From Ignavibacteriota bacterium (GTDB lineage Bacteria > Bacteroidota > Ignavibacteria > Kapaibacteriales > UBA2268), in the NCBI GenBank assembly GCA_024636855.1, contig JAGXGG010000083.1:1-36983 (forward strand): a stretch of 36,983 nt of DNA, read 5' to 3'. Shown in pieces: positions 2,999-25,045 of this stretch. Numbering within the stretch: the stretch's first letter is position 1; each line of letters opens with the position of its first letter. The notes under the pieces are model-generated. The model saw only the letters and a list, made by a program, of their open reading frames with translations, had not been told where the DNA came from and did not search any database. Position numbers and translations under genes: made by a program.

Positions 2999-4957
2999 AT
3001 GATGAAAAGAATATTATTACCTCTACTGCTTATCACATTTTTAGTGATGGCTATAAAATCAAATGCAGATGAACCACATATTAGATTTAAAACAAAAACT
3101 TCTAAAACCGATATTAAATTAGGTGATGAATTTTATGTTTTAGTTCAATTTGATATCGACAAACATTGGTACACTTATGACTTTATTGATCAGATTAGTA
3201 ATGAAGGCATAGGCCCAAATACTACCGAAATAGTTGTGTTGAGCAAAGAATTAGCAACTACTAATGGTGACTTAATAAAACCGACTCCATTAGAGAAATT
3301 CGATGAAGGTTTTGAGATGAACCTTACTTACTACAAAGGGACATTCGACGTTATAGTACCACTAAAAGCCCTTAAAAACTTTACTATAGGAAAGGAAGAA
3401 CTTTCACTTGAAGTTTATTTACAATTATGTGACACTGCTCGTTGTTTACCACCTGAACCGTATAACTTAATAATAAGTAGTGATACTTATAATGCTTCTG
3501 ATAATGAGAAGATTATAAATGAAAGTTCTGAGAAACTATTATTAGCAAAAGAAAAACATAAAGTAGTAAAAAAAGAAGAAAAGATAATAACTGAATCAAG
3601 TGCTGAGATAGAAGAAAGCAAGAAAAAAGGTGTATGGTCTTTTCTTTGGTTTGCTATGTTAGCTGGTGGAGCAGCACTGCTAACTCCTTGCGTATTCCCA
3701 ATGGTTCCTATTACAGTATCTTTCTTTACTAAAAGAGCTGAACAAACGAAAGCAAAAGGCCTTAGAGATTCTTTGATTTACGCATTAGGTATTATACTCA
3801 CATTCACTATACTCGGGTTTGCGCTTTCCTGGCTACTCCAAGATTCCGGTGGACTCGGAGGTTTTGCGGCTAATGGTTGGGTCAATATATTGATTGCATC
3901 AGTATTTATAATATTTGCATTGAATCTATTCGGTGCATTTGAGATACAGATACCAACTAGTTTGATGAATAAGTTAAACAAACAAACTCAAGGTTCTGGG
4001 ATATTCTCTATCCTAGTTATGGGATTAGTATTCTCCCTTACGTCATTTACTTGTACAGTACCATTTGTTGGTTCTGCTTTGCTTTCCGCATCTGGTGGAG
4101 AGTGGTTCTATCCTATAATAGGTATGATAGGTTTTTCAACTGTATTTGCACTTCCATTCTTTGTGTTTGCACTTATTCCTTCTGCTATGAATAAGCTTCC
4201 TAAAGCTGGTGGTTGGATGAATAATGTAAAAGTAGTAATGGGATTTCTAGAAGTCGCAGCAGCAGTCAAATTCATAAGTAATGTTGACTTAGTATGGGGT
4301 TGGGGTATTATGCCTAGAGAGATGTTCATAGCAATATGGATTATTTGTGGTGTATTAATCGTAGCATACTTACTTGGTGCATTTAGAATGAAAATGGATT
4401 CAGAATTATCAAATCTAGGTGCTTTGAGAATTATTTGGGCAATTATATTCGGTGCTATAACTATATTCTTGATACCGGGTTTATTCGGTAAGAACATGGG
4501 TGAGATAGATGCATTTTTACCTCCTCAAGGTTACTTAAATGCAAATGTATCATCTGCTTCTGCTGGTGGTAGTATGTTTGGAGAGAAAGGTGAGACAACT
4601 GTATGGCTTCATGATTACGATGAAGCACTTGCATTAGCAAAAAAAGAGAACAAGCCGATATTCATTGATTTCACAGGTTGGACATGTACGAACTGTAGAT
4701 GGATGGAATCTAACGTATTCCCTTTACCACAAGTTCAAAAGTACTTTACTGGAATGATAAATGTTAAACTTTATACAGATAGAAGAGAAGAGCCAGAACT
4801 TAGCAATAAAGAGTTTCAAAAGAGTATGTTCAATTCTATCGAATTACCATTATATGTTATATTGACACCTGATGAGAAATTGGTAGGAACAAAGGCATTT
4901 ACTAGAGATTTACAAGAATTTCTTGACTTTTTAGACAAAGGTGCTAACTCCTTATAG
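2999..4957 (+). CDS. dsbD: Thiol:disulfide interchange protein DsbD
   Basis: DsbD moves electrons from cytoplasmic thioredoxin across the inner membrane to periplasmic reductases. All three parts are visible in 652 residues. After a signal peptide (about 1-23) comes the periplasmic alpha domain with its cysteine pair C144/C149 (LQLCDTARCL). A multi-pass membrane domain from about 213 carries the first redox cysteine in TPCVFPMVP (C231) and the second in SFTCTVPFVG. The C-terminal thioredoxin domain has C563-T-N-C566. The start is ATG 2999 or ATG 3002. It follows hprK by 14 bases and is probably co-transcribed. The two TlpA-like lipoproteins at 18.7-20.0 kb and the exported CPPC protein at 31.9-33.3 kb are plausible clients, by inference only. 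Confidence 0.93.
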   Translation: MMKRILLPLLLITFLVMAIKSNADEPHIRFKTKTSKTDIKLGDEFYVLVQFDIDKHWYTYDFIDQISNEGIGPNTTEIVVLSKELATTNGDLIKPTPLEKFDEGFEMNLTYYKGTFDVIVPLKALKNFTIGKEELSLEVYLQLCDTARCLPPEPYNLIISSDTYNASDNEKIINESSEKLLLAKEKHKVVKKEEKIITESSAEIEESKKKGVWSFLWFAMLAGGAALLTPCVFPMVPITVSFFTKRAEQTKAKGLRDSLIYALGIILTFTILGFALSWLLQDSGGLGGFAANGWVNILIASVFIIFALNLFGAFEIQIPTSLMNKLNKQTQGSGIFSILVMGLVFSLTSFTCTVPFVGSALLSASGGEWFYPIIGMIGFSTVFALPFFVFALIPSAMNKLPKAGGWMNNVKVVMGFLEVAAAVKFISNVDLVWGWGIMPREMFIAIWIICGVLIVAYLLGAFRMKMDSELSNLGALRIIWAIIFGAITIFLIPGLFGKNMGEIDAFLPPQGYLNANVSSASAGGSMFGEKGETTVWLHDYDEALALAKKENKPIFIDFTGWTCTNCRWMESNVFPLPQVQKYFTGMINVKLYTDRREEPELSNKEFQKSMFNSIELPLYVILTPDEKLVGTKAFTRDLQEFLDFLDKGANSL

Positions 4958-22807: not shown

Positions 22808-23017
22808 ATGAATGAAATAATGAAAGAGAAGAAGCAAATAATAAAAGGTACGTTATTATCACTAATATCAACAATAATACTATTAGTAATCTTCTATATC
22901 TCAGATAATGTTAATATTGATTTTGTTGTAATAAGTATAAGTGCACTCTATTTTATCGCAATGTCTATCATTTTTTCCAAAAAAATTATAAAAAAGGAAA
23001 GACAGCTAGGAAGTTAA
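22808..23017 (+). CDS. Small two-TM membrane protein (unit 1)
   Basis: The 69-residue hypothetical protein has a basic N-terminus (MKEKKQIIK), two hydrophobic segments (about residues 14-30 and 36-56) and a basic C-terminus (KKIIKKERQLGS). It is related to both halves of the 124-residue product encoded next to it. The shared pattern is a SLISTIILLVI first segment and a YFIAMSIIF second segment. Its stop TAA (23015-23017) overlaps, on the other strand, the stop of a relic of the rnhB 3' end. I know no function; a holin- or toxin-like role cannot be inferred from two TM segments alone. Confidence 0.6.
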   Translation: MNEIMKEKKQIIKGTLLSLISTIILLVIFYISDNVNIDFVVISISALYFIAMSIIFSKKIIKKERQLGS

Positions 23018-23049
23018 TCAAATAACTCTACTTCTTTATTATCAAACTT
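23014..23049 (-). pseudogene. rnhB 3'-end relic 1
   Basis: Read on the minus strand this encodes KFDNKEVELFD followed by TAA, resembling the C-terminus KFDNREEGLF of the intact RNase HII gene downstream. Over 30 aligned bases 23 match the real rnhB end. Its stop overlaps the stop of the 69-residue membrane-protein gene by two bases. The homology fades upstream, so only the very end is preserved. Confidence 0.6.
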
Positions 23050-23068
23050 ATTGATTTAAAAGCGTAAT

Positions 23069-23115
23069 TGTAAGATTTTGAATAAAGATAAATTAATTAT
23101 TAAGTTGCGAATCTA
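23069..23115. repeat. pepF 3'-flank direct repeat, copy 2
   Basis: This copy of the sequence that follows the real pepF stop shows only three substitutions and one inserted A relative to 22751-22796. It sits immediately upstream of the 124-residue membrane-protein gene, as copy 1 does for the 69-residue gene. A weaker echo (TTTGAATAAAGA) recurs at 23638-23649 before the third unit. Confidence 0.85.
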
Positions 23116-23138
23116 ATTTATATAAAAAAAGTGATGTT

Positions 23139-23513
23139 ATGAAAAACCGTAAAAAAATATTGAAATCAATTTTAATTTCATTAGTCTCTACTATTTTACT
23201 TTTTGTTATATTAAATTTCAAGAATGAAGAATTCGCCAACCCCCTAAATATTAGTATTTTCACACTCTTCTTTGTGGCTATGTCGTATGGGTGGTATAAA
23301 CAAGATACTATTATGAATAGTAAGAAGTTAAAATTAAGTGCTATTGGATACTCTATTATTTCAACTATCCTTTTATTATATATAATCTCAAACCACTTTC
23401 AAAGAAACATCAATAATCTATCCGAATTAGGAATAGTAACTATATATTTTATATTTATGTCTATAGTTTTTTATATATCTTTTAAGAAAAAGCAAGAAAG
23501 ATTGACTCATTAG
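23139..23513 (+). CDS. Small four-TM membrane protein, internally duplicated (unit 2)
   Basis: The 124-residue hypothetical protein is built of two copies of the two-TM unit seen once in the 69-residue neighbour. Residues about 5-55 contain SILISLVSTILLFVIL and FTLFFVAMS. Residues about 65-120 contain YSIISTILLLYII and VTIYFIFMSIVFYIS. Both ends are basic (MKNRKKILK and KKKQERL). Its stop TAG (23511-23513) overlaps the stop of a second rnhB 3' relic on the minus strand, the same geometry as unit 1. The function is unknown; it is likely an inner-membrane protein. Confidence 0.6.
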   Translation: MKNRKKILKSILISLVSTILLFVILNFKNEEFANPLNISIFTLFFVAMSYGWYKQDTIMNSKKLKLSAIGYSIISTILLLYIISNHFQRNINNLSELGIVTIYFIFMSIVFYISFKKKQERLTH

Positions 23514-23610
23514 CCAAACAACCCCTCTTTCCTATTATCAAACTTAATAAGAAAACTATTTCGATGAATCCGGCACTTACCGGATTTTTTTATGGCTGCG
23601 AAGCGGGATT
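23510..23610 (-). pseudogene. rnhB 3'-end relic 2
   Basis: Bases 23516-23610 match 24422-24516, the 3' part of the intact rnhB gene, at 88 of 95 positions with no gaps. Read on the minus strand the relic still encodes FAAIKKSGKCRIHRNS, then FLIKFDNRKEGLFG and a stop. Almost all differences are synonymous, and the clear change is E to K near the end. That pattern suggests the segment was once part of a working rnhB before being left behind by insertion or replacement. Confidence 0.85.
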
Positions 23611-23708
23611 AGATTAAAATAAATAAAAAATAGCCAGTTTGAATAAAGAAATAAGGTAAAATTTTCTTAAATTGGTTATATATAAACGTTAGCTACAAGT
23701 GAAACAGA

Positions 23709-24227
23709 ATGAACATAGATGAACTTGCCATAAAAGAACAGAACCTTTATTCAATTGTGATAAAACTTGAAGGCACGATTGAAGAAAAGTCTGATAAAGT
23801 TGTCTATTTTGGAATTACAAAAGAGTATCGAGAAATTCATCAGGAATATTCAAGATTAGCAAAAAGTGACTTAGAAGCACTGAAGAGAGCATTGTTCCTT
23901 ATGTGGTATTCAAAATCTGAAACCGATTGGTTAACGGGAGTTGGAGTACTTGATGAGGAATCTGAAGAAAGTATTGTCGAAATTCTTGATAGAAGACTTA
24001 AACGAGGCATAACTGACAATGAACTCGATTGGATGTTAGATTACTATTCGGGTTGGGATTACATGTTTGAGCGATTCGGTGATTTTAAAAACTTTCAAAA
24101 CAGATTAAAAAGTAAATCGAAAACTGAATTGCCTGATGAAATTGACAGAATGAAAATGGAGCAAAGAGGCCAGATGGGAAGATATTGGAATTCACTGACA
24201 AGATTTAATAAAGAAACTAGTAGCTAA
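23709..24227 (+). CDS. Hypothetical protein in a cassette-like element
   Basis: I do not recognise this 172-residue soluble protein. It has no signal peptide and no membrane segment. It is rich in Glu, Lys and Trp/Tyr, largely helical in appearance, with a distinctive aromatic stretch ELDWMLDYYSGWDYMFERFGDF around residues 102-123 and a charged tail. The start ATG 23709 lies 20 bases after the proposed cassette boundary and has no clear Shine-Dalgarno site, which is typical of cassette genes. Codon choice (GAACTTGCC, GAACAGAACC) looks unlike the adjoining AT-biased genes. The stop codon is embedded in the downstream core site TAGCTAAC. Functions of such cassette genes are usually unknown. Confidence 0.65.
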   Translation: MNIDELAIKEQNLYSIVIKLEGTIEEKSDKVVYFGITKEYREIHQEYSRLAKSDLEALKRALFLMWYSKSETDWLTGVGVLDEESEESIVEILDRRLKRGITDNELDWMLDYYSGWDYMFERFGDFKNFQNRLKSKSKTELPDEIDRMKMEQRGQMGRYWNSLTRFNKETSS

Positions 24228-24416
24228 CACTCTATATAGCAAATAGGGCGTTCGGTGGATTACGAAAGTTCAGTGATATTTACAAACACCTCCAAATCGT
24301 TGATTTGGTTTTAAAGAATGAATAAAATAATAACAAAATACAACGCTTTGGCTCTGTGCAAACTTGAAAGTTTATTGCTTTCTACTGCCCTACTTGCTAT
24401 ATACTAATCGTTTAAT
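24222..24416 (+). other. Candidate attC-like recombination site
   Basis: The left core AGCTAAC overlaps the stop of the cassette gene. TATATAGCAAATAGGG (24233-24248) pairs with CCCTACTTGCTATATA (24388-24403) with one mismatch, forming the base of a long stem-loop, and a right core begins at GTT 24410. Inside it, CCAAATC-GTT-GATTTGG (24292-24308) is a perfect 7-base-pair hairpin followed by four T. At 195 bases it is longer than typical attC sites. An ordinary 3' structure or terminator is the alternative. Confidence 0.4.
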
Positions 24417-24418
24417 TA

Positions 24419-25045
24419 CTAAAACAACCCCTCTTCCCTATTATCAAATTTGATAAGAAAACTATTACGATGAATCCGGCACTTGCCGGATTTTTTTATG
24501 GCTGCAAAGTGGGATTTAGTGCCATAGCCCTTGTGTTTATCAAATCCATATTCGGGAAATTCAGCGTGATATTCTTTCATCAATCTGTCCCTAGTCACTT
24601 TCGCTATTATGGAAGCGGCAGCAATAGAGAAAGACTTTGAGTCACCTTTCACTATTGTTTGGAATGATTTGTATTTTGTTGATTTGAATCGGTTACCGTC
24701 TATTAATAGCATATTGGGCTGAGTAGATAGTTTACTGACTGATAGCTCCATTGCTAGATATGTAGCATTCAGTATGTTGATTTCATCAATTTTTGCTTCA
24801 TCAACTATCCCAATTCCATAAGATATTCTTTCGTCTGAGGTGATTAAATGATACAGCTCATTTCTTATCTTTTCAGTTAATTTCTTGGAATCCGTCAGCT
24901 TTGGGATTTCAAATTGTTCGTGGAATATAACAGCGGCAGCCACTACTGGCCCAGCTAATGGCCCTCTACCAGCTTCATCTGCACCAGCTATAATGGGGTA
25001 TTTTTTTATAAGTGAGTTTTCGTAGTCGAAGTTTGGGGTGGTCAT
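24419..25045 (-). CDS. rnhB: Ribonuclease HII
   Basis: RNase HII removes ribonucleotides embedded in DNA and RNA primers. The 208-residue protein is full length. It carries the catalytic Asp-Glu pair in GADEAGRGPLAGPV (D23-E24), the LLIDGNRFK strand with a catalytic Asp, and the SIIAKVTRDRLM and YGFDKHKGYGTKSH segments that complete the active site. The C-terminus KFDNREEGLF is the intact version of two upstream relics. It lies downstream of the multicopper oxidase gene on the same strand, 52 bases away, but its function is unrelated to the copper island. Confidence 0.96.
   Translation of the reverse strand: MTTPNFDYENSLIKKYPIIAGADEAGRGPLAGPVVAAAVIFHEQFEIPKLTDSKKLTEKIRNELYHLITSDERISYGIGIVDEAKIDEINILNATYLAMELSVSKLSTQPNMLLIDGNRFKSTKYKSFQTIVKGDSKSFSIAAASIIAKVTRDRLMKEYHAEFPEYGFDKHKGYGTKSHFAAIKKSGKCRIHRNSFLIKFDNREEGLF

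Follow-up and report, generated by a model that had tools for sequence, protein, structure and literature searches.

A small gene of unknown family lies between rnhB and pepF, at the rnhB 3' end, in the 3.1-Mb draft genome (96% complete) of an Ignavibacteriota bacterium, and the question raised by this locus is whether the gene and the long hairpin that follows it form a mobile cassette, and if so of which system. The window, by which we mean the whole stretch of DNA analysed, is contig C22 of this genome (36,983 nucleotides), and an original prediction made from sequence alone had proposed that it carries an integron-style cassette without an integrase, with a recombination site that might represent a divergent attC class. 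Our analyses suggest that the element is very likely (probability about 0.87) a single cassette of the SALIN type belonging to an integron-like system of Bacteroidota, and we regard it as a lone cassette, because its own genome contains no more than three sites of this class and lacks an integrase of this kind. SALIN and CALIN denote single or clustered attC sites without an integrase, and attG denotes cassette insertion at non-classical genomic sites (PMC12690207, PMC9024848).

Anatomy of the cassette

The cassette consists of one gene and one hairpin site (23689-24410, forward strand, 722 bp), an extent supported by the logic of its borders, by a relative in Flagellimonas and by homologous sites found with other genes. 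Its left core GTTAGCTAC (23688-23696, forward strand, R'-type) and right core GTAGCTAAC (24220-24228, forward strand, R''-type) are exactly complementary over 9 nt and each occurs once in the window, where GTTAGCT differs from the GTTRRRY / RYYYAAC consensus at the sixth base. The cargo gene (23709-24227, forward strand, 172 codons encoding 172 aa) ends within the right core, its TAA stop codon occupying 24225-24227. The attC-like recombination site (24226-24412, reverse strand) is 187 nt long, folds on the bottom strand, and is ordered AAC (24226-24228), ACTC, stem, loop, stem, CTAATC and GTT (24410-24412), with stem arms of 17 bp (24233-24249 and 24387-24403) and unpaired spacers of 4 nt (24229-24232) and 6 nt (24404-24409). 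One irregularity interrupts the stem, read as an A.C mismatch on the top strand and as a G.T wobble on the bottom strand. When folded as bottom-strand DNA the site was more stable than its shuffles (z = -4.1), and our anatomy scanner gave it a score of 38.5 as compared to a best score of 29 among 60 dinucleotide-shuffled whole windows, with no further site above 20 in the real window. The right end repeats the left border (GGTTATATATAAACGTTAG and GCTATATACTAATCGTTTA). Before the left GTT lies the flank GGTTATATATAAAC (23674-23687, forward strand), a putative integration target which resembles the right end of the attI-like sites described below, and which ranks second among the 1184 GTT positions of the window under a matrix built from 16 attI-like sites of other genomes. 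Crossover at G^TT, a point that is inferred, would place the predicted cassette start at 23689.

The original prediction therefore held in its paired cores, in the stop codon within the right core and in the repeat of the left border at the right end. It had also called for a fold of the bottom strand and a search for extrahelical bases; the strand folds, with a bulge-free stem that has none. The proposed unit of 23674-24416 is corrected to 23689-24410, and the proposed 16-base imperfect stem to 17 bp with the single top-strand A.C (bottom G.T). Its claim of foreign-looking codon usage was weak and is not borne out, as the codon-usage distance of the gene (0.209) lies within the range of equal-sized pieces of neighbouring genes (0.133-0.235).

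The cargo gene and its relative in Flagellimonas

The cargo protein is probably all-helical. It belongs to no Pfam, PADLOC or PHROG family and a protein search found no match in plasmids, and its structure model is of low confidence (mean pLDDT 64) and has no significant fold match in the PDB. A scan of 85,000 genomes returned a single close relative, 85% identical, in Flagellimonas sp. S3867 (locus L033), and we searched three genomes of the same genus and 50 others of the family without finding the gene in any of them. Comparison of L033 with the window shows that the DNA homology (86%) starts at CGTT, at the left core, and stops just past AAC. In 60-bp strips identity was 0.92 and 0.90 just inside the two borders versus 0.33 and 0.43 just outside, and the Flagellimonas flanks of the gene are unrelated to those of the window. 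The Flagellimonas gene is preceded by an inverted repeat, likewise ending in CGTT, and is followed by a different and much shorter hairpin (3518-3562, approximately 45 nt) with the same 4-nt and 6-nt spacers, which reaches only 25.9 bits under a covariance model (R1) that was built without L033. Because the Flagellimonas copy bears this different, shorter hairpin, the gene is not tied to one particular site. We observe that the cargo gene, carrying a 187-nt site in the window and one of approximately 45 nt in Flagellimonas, has apparently had gene and hairpin exchanged at AAC, which bears on the origin of cassettes. A second homologue of the cargo gene (L070, 46-47% identical) was considered as a cassette and rejected, as no cassette borders flank it.

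A class of sites that fold on the bottom strand

The covariance model R1 was built without the window site as well as without L033, and it matches the window site at 52.4 bits (E 1.3e-9). It also matches sites on seven plasmids, in 34/54 genomes of the family, and in 183 of 395 Bacteroidota genomes representing sampled species (103 of 171 genera). No match was obtained in a class 1 integron, the hairpin has no match in Rfam, and in the open-access literature that we searched we found no published description of this site class, which does not exclude an earlier one. Within the window the cassette's site is the only one of the class by both R1 and the scanner, and the whole genome contains three R1 sites (in the window and on contigs C58 and C89). 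Blastn with the hairpin found no second copy in the genome and no match in phages. An earlier search of the genome with a short right-arm motif was discarded and replaced by the covariance model, the motif being at most as frequent as its reversed control.

In an alignment of 52 sites 92.5% of the cells pair, and covariation was 0.588 versus 0.144 when shuffled and at most 0.134 when slid. The percentage paired is partly circular since the sites were chosen for their complementarity, and this applies less to the slide control and to the asymmetry of the wobbles. Among 134 distinct sites we counted 270 bottom-strand G.T wobbles (A.C in the top strand) versus only 11 in the top strand, using scoring that is symmetric for wobbles on either strand, and this asymmetry is the signature of selection for folding of the bottom-strand DNA and is an argument against an RNA hairpin. 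G.T wobbles are conserved at two positions of the stem (in 35/52 and 45/52 sites), the second of which is retained in the window site. The 18-bp stem shows no more than two gaps per column in the 52 sites and no extrahelical bases, a result limited by the fact that the scanner which picked the sites accepts gapless stems only. In nearly all sites the spacers are of 3-4 nt on one side versus 5-7 nt on the other, and most sites measure 120-125 or 175-190 nt. Within the cores (8-10 nt) GTT and AAC never vary, and the remainder is private to each cassette. In 74% of 81 distinct cassettes the start core complements the end core over 7 nt or more, versus 4% of mismatched pairs (9 nt in the window cassette), and for the two outer cores of one arrayed site the median match is just 4 nt.

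Arrays headed by a tyrosine recombinase

Blastn against plasmids located the window's hairpin in two plasmids of Persicobacter psychrovividus, pPP1 (85% identity over 189 nt) and pPP2, and in pPP1 the copy adjoins a vanW-like gene. In pPP2 we found approximately 90 sites, all on the same strand, over about 73 kb (from approximately 331 to 404 kb; scanner counts of 45, 29 and 18 in the segments L096, L072 and L098, with two doubtful). The opposite strand and the next 12 kb (L097) gave no scanner hit. Neighbouring sites enclose one small gene as a rule, a single hairpin type is joined to up to eight different cores, and transposase genes are present within some arrays. The pPP2 array is headed by a gene for a tyrosine recombinase of 379 aa, located on the same strand approximately 160 nt ahead of the first cassette. 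Two recombinases of Persicobacter JZB09 (L076 and L078) were considered as array integrases and rejected, since they are of IS91 type and are followed by a transposase gene.

Homologues of the pPP2 recombinase (E below 1e-60) were found in 68/395 Bacteroidota genomes, and their linkage to the sites is shown by several counts. At 34 loci 15 of the 20 sites around a homologue lay downstream on the same strand, with none in shuffles, and in a further set of 20 fetched stretches and one plasmid 51 sites were downstream on the same strand and none upstream or on the opposite strand. A site was present in 59/68 genomes with the recombinase versus 124/327 of the others (odds ratio 10.7, p 4e-14, uncorrected for relatedness), and some homologues had no site nearby. 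Most of the same-strand loci show the first cassette's start core, with 0-1 mismatch, within approximately 160 nt beyond the recombinase gene. The attI-like sequence before it often ends in TATATAAAC-n or TATACAAAC immediately before GTT, and in several loci holds an inverted repeat (e.g. TATAAACGTA-ATAAAC-TACGTTTATA). By anatomy alone, the requirement for an attI-like site next to integrase and first cassette is thus met in this system, and no such site is present at the window locus itself. In the window's own family the arrangement of recombinase and cassettes can be divergent (G031 and G016), and in one same-genus genome (G003) an array-type recombinase, the matching integrase L200, lies beside a cassette.

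A comparison of 38 homologous recombinases, not all of which have a site nearby, revealed 56-61 residues between the GKGxKDR and LRHSF motifs versus 98 in IntI1, and VchIntIA aligns in two pieces. The recombinase scores below the cut-off of TIGR02249, the integron-integrase model of NCBI (198 versus 265), and above that of the XerA model, and its best NCBI family is named 'site-specific tyrosine recombinase/integron integrase'. Recombinases of this system often have an N-terminal extension of approximately 100 aa and often are encoded on the cassette strand. In our recombinase tree IntI1 sits near the base on a very long branch, a placement too unsure for use.

Comparison with known systems

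Similar to integrons (IntI/attI/attC, including the sedentary chromosomal ones), the Bacteroidota system has one-gene cassettes in same-strand arrays, sites with AAC/GTT ends that are imperfect palindromes folding on the bottom strand, unpaired spacers of unequal length on the two sides, start cores that complement end cores, and an attI-like platform site beside a tyrosine recombinase. However, the IntI-specific insertion near patch III is missing from its recombinases, which often carry the N-terminal extension, its stems have two conserved bottom-strand G.T wobbles in place of extrahelical bases, its cores are cassette-private, its site lengths fall into the two classes given above, and its recombinase is often on the cassette strand. 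The roughly thousandfold greater efficiency of the bottom strand in canonical integrons is set by the unpaired spacer, the extrahelical bases and the terminal structure (PMC8946536). The insertion is a defining feature that we tested, and on it membership among canonical integrons fails.

The window cassette resembles SALIN/CALIN elements and attG insertions in that it lies outside an array, in a genome without a matching integrase, with a left flank that looks like a recombinase site, but its site is of the Bacteroidota class and not of the attC class by which those terms are defined. The requirement for a SALIN (one attC-type site, no integrase nearby) is fulfilled, provided that the site is counted as an attC. 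Simple two-domain tyrosine recombinases of this kind are shared with the 'integron-like' subgroup of Smyshlyaev et al. 2021 (PMC8138268) and with NCBIfam NF040815 XerA. In that study the IntI insertion is described as essential for integron function, whereas here recombinases without it head cassette arrays. Integrons have been reported as very rare in Bacteroidota, with an earlier survey finding only integrases without cassettes and IntegronFinder 2 a single complete integron in Bacteroidetes, in Salinibacter ruber (PMC9024848), and the published taxon models of attC omit this phylum (PMC8352920).

Alternative explanations

The alternative that survives best is that 23611-24414 was brought to the rnhB 3' end by an integrative element in which the cassette was a mere passenger, which is possible. 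The last approximately 100 bp of rnhB are duplicated on the far side of the cassette at 90% identity (partial second copy at 23509-23610 and intact 3' end at 24415-24516, both reverse strand), and it is this duplication on both sides that suggests such an element may have brought the cassette. Beyond rnhB the DNA is different in every same-genus relative, with a phage-type integrase gene directly beyond it in one, and the rnhB 3' end has the look of an integration hot spot. However, this reading explains the locus and not the cassette borders, and between the upstream duplication and the cassette lie approximately 75 bp of DNA unrelated to either. We consider it compatible with our preferred explanation rather than opposed to it.

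It is unlikely that the site is an ordinary attC moved by a standard IntI and missed by detection tools. In favor of this are the attC logic of the element (AAC/GTT cores, asymmetric spacers and a bottom-strand fold), the mention of an integron integrase in the name of the best NCBI family, and the inclusion of Bacteroidota among the phyla listed with integrons (PMC8618304). Against it, the recombinases at the array head, and those homologous to it, lack the IntI insertion and fall short of TIGR02249, R1 does not match in a class 1 integron, and the stems have no extrahelical base. Less likely still is a self-spreading hairpin (MITE- or REP-like, moved by a transposase) inserting after genes by chance. 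Near-identical hairpins do occur beside many different genes, and some arrays include transposase genes, but the borders are at both ends of the gene and not of the hairpin alone, each cassette has a start core that complements its end core, and the sites stand in tandem on one strand beside a tyrosine recombinase. A transcription terminator or structured RNA, as the stable hairpin after the stop codon might suggest, is also very unlikely given that mismatches are tolerated as bottom-strand G.T and not as G.U in a transcript (270 versus 11), and that Rfam has no match. XerCD 'pdif' modules were tentatively set aside, as the borders share only short cores.

The Bacteroidota cassette reading thus remains preferred, and the remaining claims of the original prediction can be judged against it. 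The absence of an integrase held for the draft genome, where we found no array-type recombinase (the nearest being XerC/XerD-like at 31-33%), and the integron-style cassette with a divergent attC class is supported; in addition, a matching integrase exists elsewhere and is not a standard IntI. Two outcomes would have counted against the prediction, a downstream region occurring only with this gene and a gene stable at its locus. Neither was seen: in Persicobacter the region adjoins unrelated genes, and sites of its class occur across the phylum. The gene is absent from the 53 family genomes, and in Flagellimonas it has the very borders that were predicted, with unrelated sequence on either side. 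The prediction also proposed looking for an empty site; we sought one via rnhB in the genus and could demonstrate none, as each relative carries other DNA beyond rnhB.

A proposed mechanism

We propose that the bottom strand of 24226-24412 would be extruded as a hairpin, and that a XerA-like tyrosine recombinase would bind the AAC/GTT ends together with the 17-18-bp stem and cut at G^TT. The excised circle would then carry a site with a perfect 9-bp core pair (GTAGCTAAC/GTTAGCTAC) and may integrate at an attI-like site, that is, an inverted repeat ending in TATATAAAC-n before GTT, or at a similar genomic sequence. In our case the recombinase would have been supplied from elsewhere, an assumption made because the 96%-complete draft has no matching one, leaving the cassette now immobile between rnhB and pepF. 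The action of the array-head recombinase on these hairpins and the insertion in trans at a secondary site are, like the crossover point, inferences, whereas the anatomy, the borders, the recurrence with other genes, the linkage of arrays to recombinases and the bottom-strand signature rest on direct observation. Against the proposal stand the lack of any observed recombination event, circle or empty site, the different hairpin of the Flagellimonas copy, the homologues without a nearby site and the published view that the IntI insertion is essential. Full pairing of the outer core is confined to the circle, which may tip the balance from excision toward integration, and in stems without extrahelical bases it may be the conserved G.T wobbles that mark the strand; both ideas are hypothetical.

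A bolder reading, toward which we lean only slightly, is that this is a phylum-wide gene-capture system parallel to the IntI integrons, with an integrase that is XerA-like and insertion-less, bulge-free single-stranded hairpins in which the two G.T wobbles would mark the strand, and private 8-10-nt cores which, by pairing only in the circle, would favour integration. With matches in 183 of the 395 sampled species, a large mobile gene pool may have been overlooked, possibly because tools demand the IntI-specific domain and known attC shapes. If insertion and extrahelical bases are both dispensable, what an integrase needs in order to read a folded single-stranded site is an open question that now becomes testable.

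Observations on related loci

Two further plasmid loci deserve mention. The vanW-like gene of pPP1 (L071, 4186-5047) makes up a separate cassette (GTTAGCATT..AATGCTAAC) that immediately follows the hairpin most closely related to that of the window, and on the mobilizable Flagellimonas marinaquae plasmid NZ_CP092416 a gene of the dihydrofolate reductase family lies between two sites of the class (L132, 3884-4717), next to erm(F) and a xerA-type recombinase. In the window's family one stretch (L190, G016:C16) carries several array-type recombinase genes, one with an in-frame stop, adjoining a divergent cassette array.

At the window locus the rnhB 3' end occurs two to three times in tandem (23509-23610, 24415-24516 and approximately 23014-23050). 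The neighbouring region 22810-23513 encodes two small predicted membrane proteins, each with a similar leader (TTTTGAATAAAGATAA..TTAATTATTAAGTTG) before it and an rnhB-3'-like remnant after it, and these units could possibly be modules that were added successively. The lone cassettes on the two other contigs of this genome (L196, G000:C58 and L197, G000:C89), in whose fetched stretches no recombinase was present, begin beside the palindrome GGATATACGAATGTTCGTATATC (one base different on C89), and this palindrome also precedes the first cassette at the recombinase of G003.
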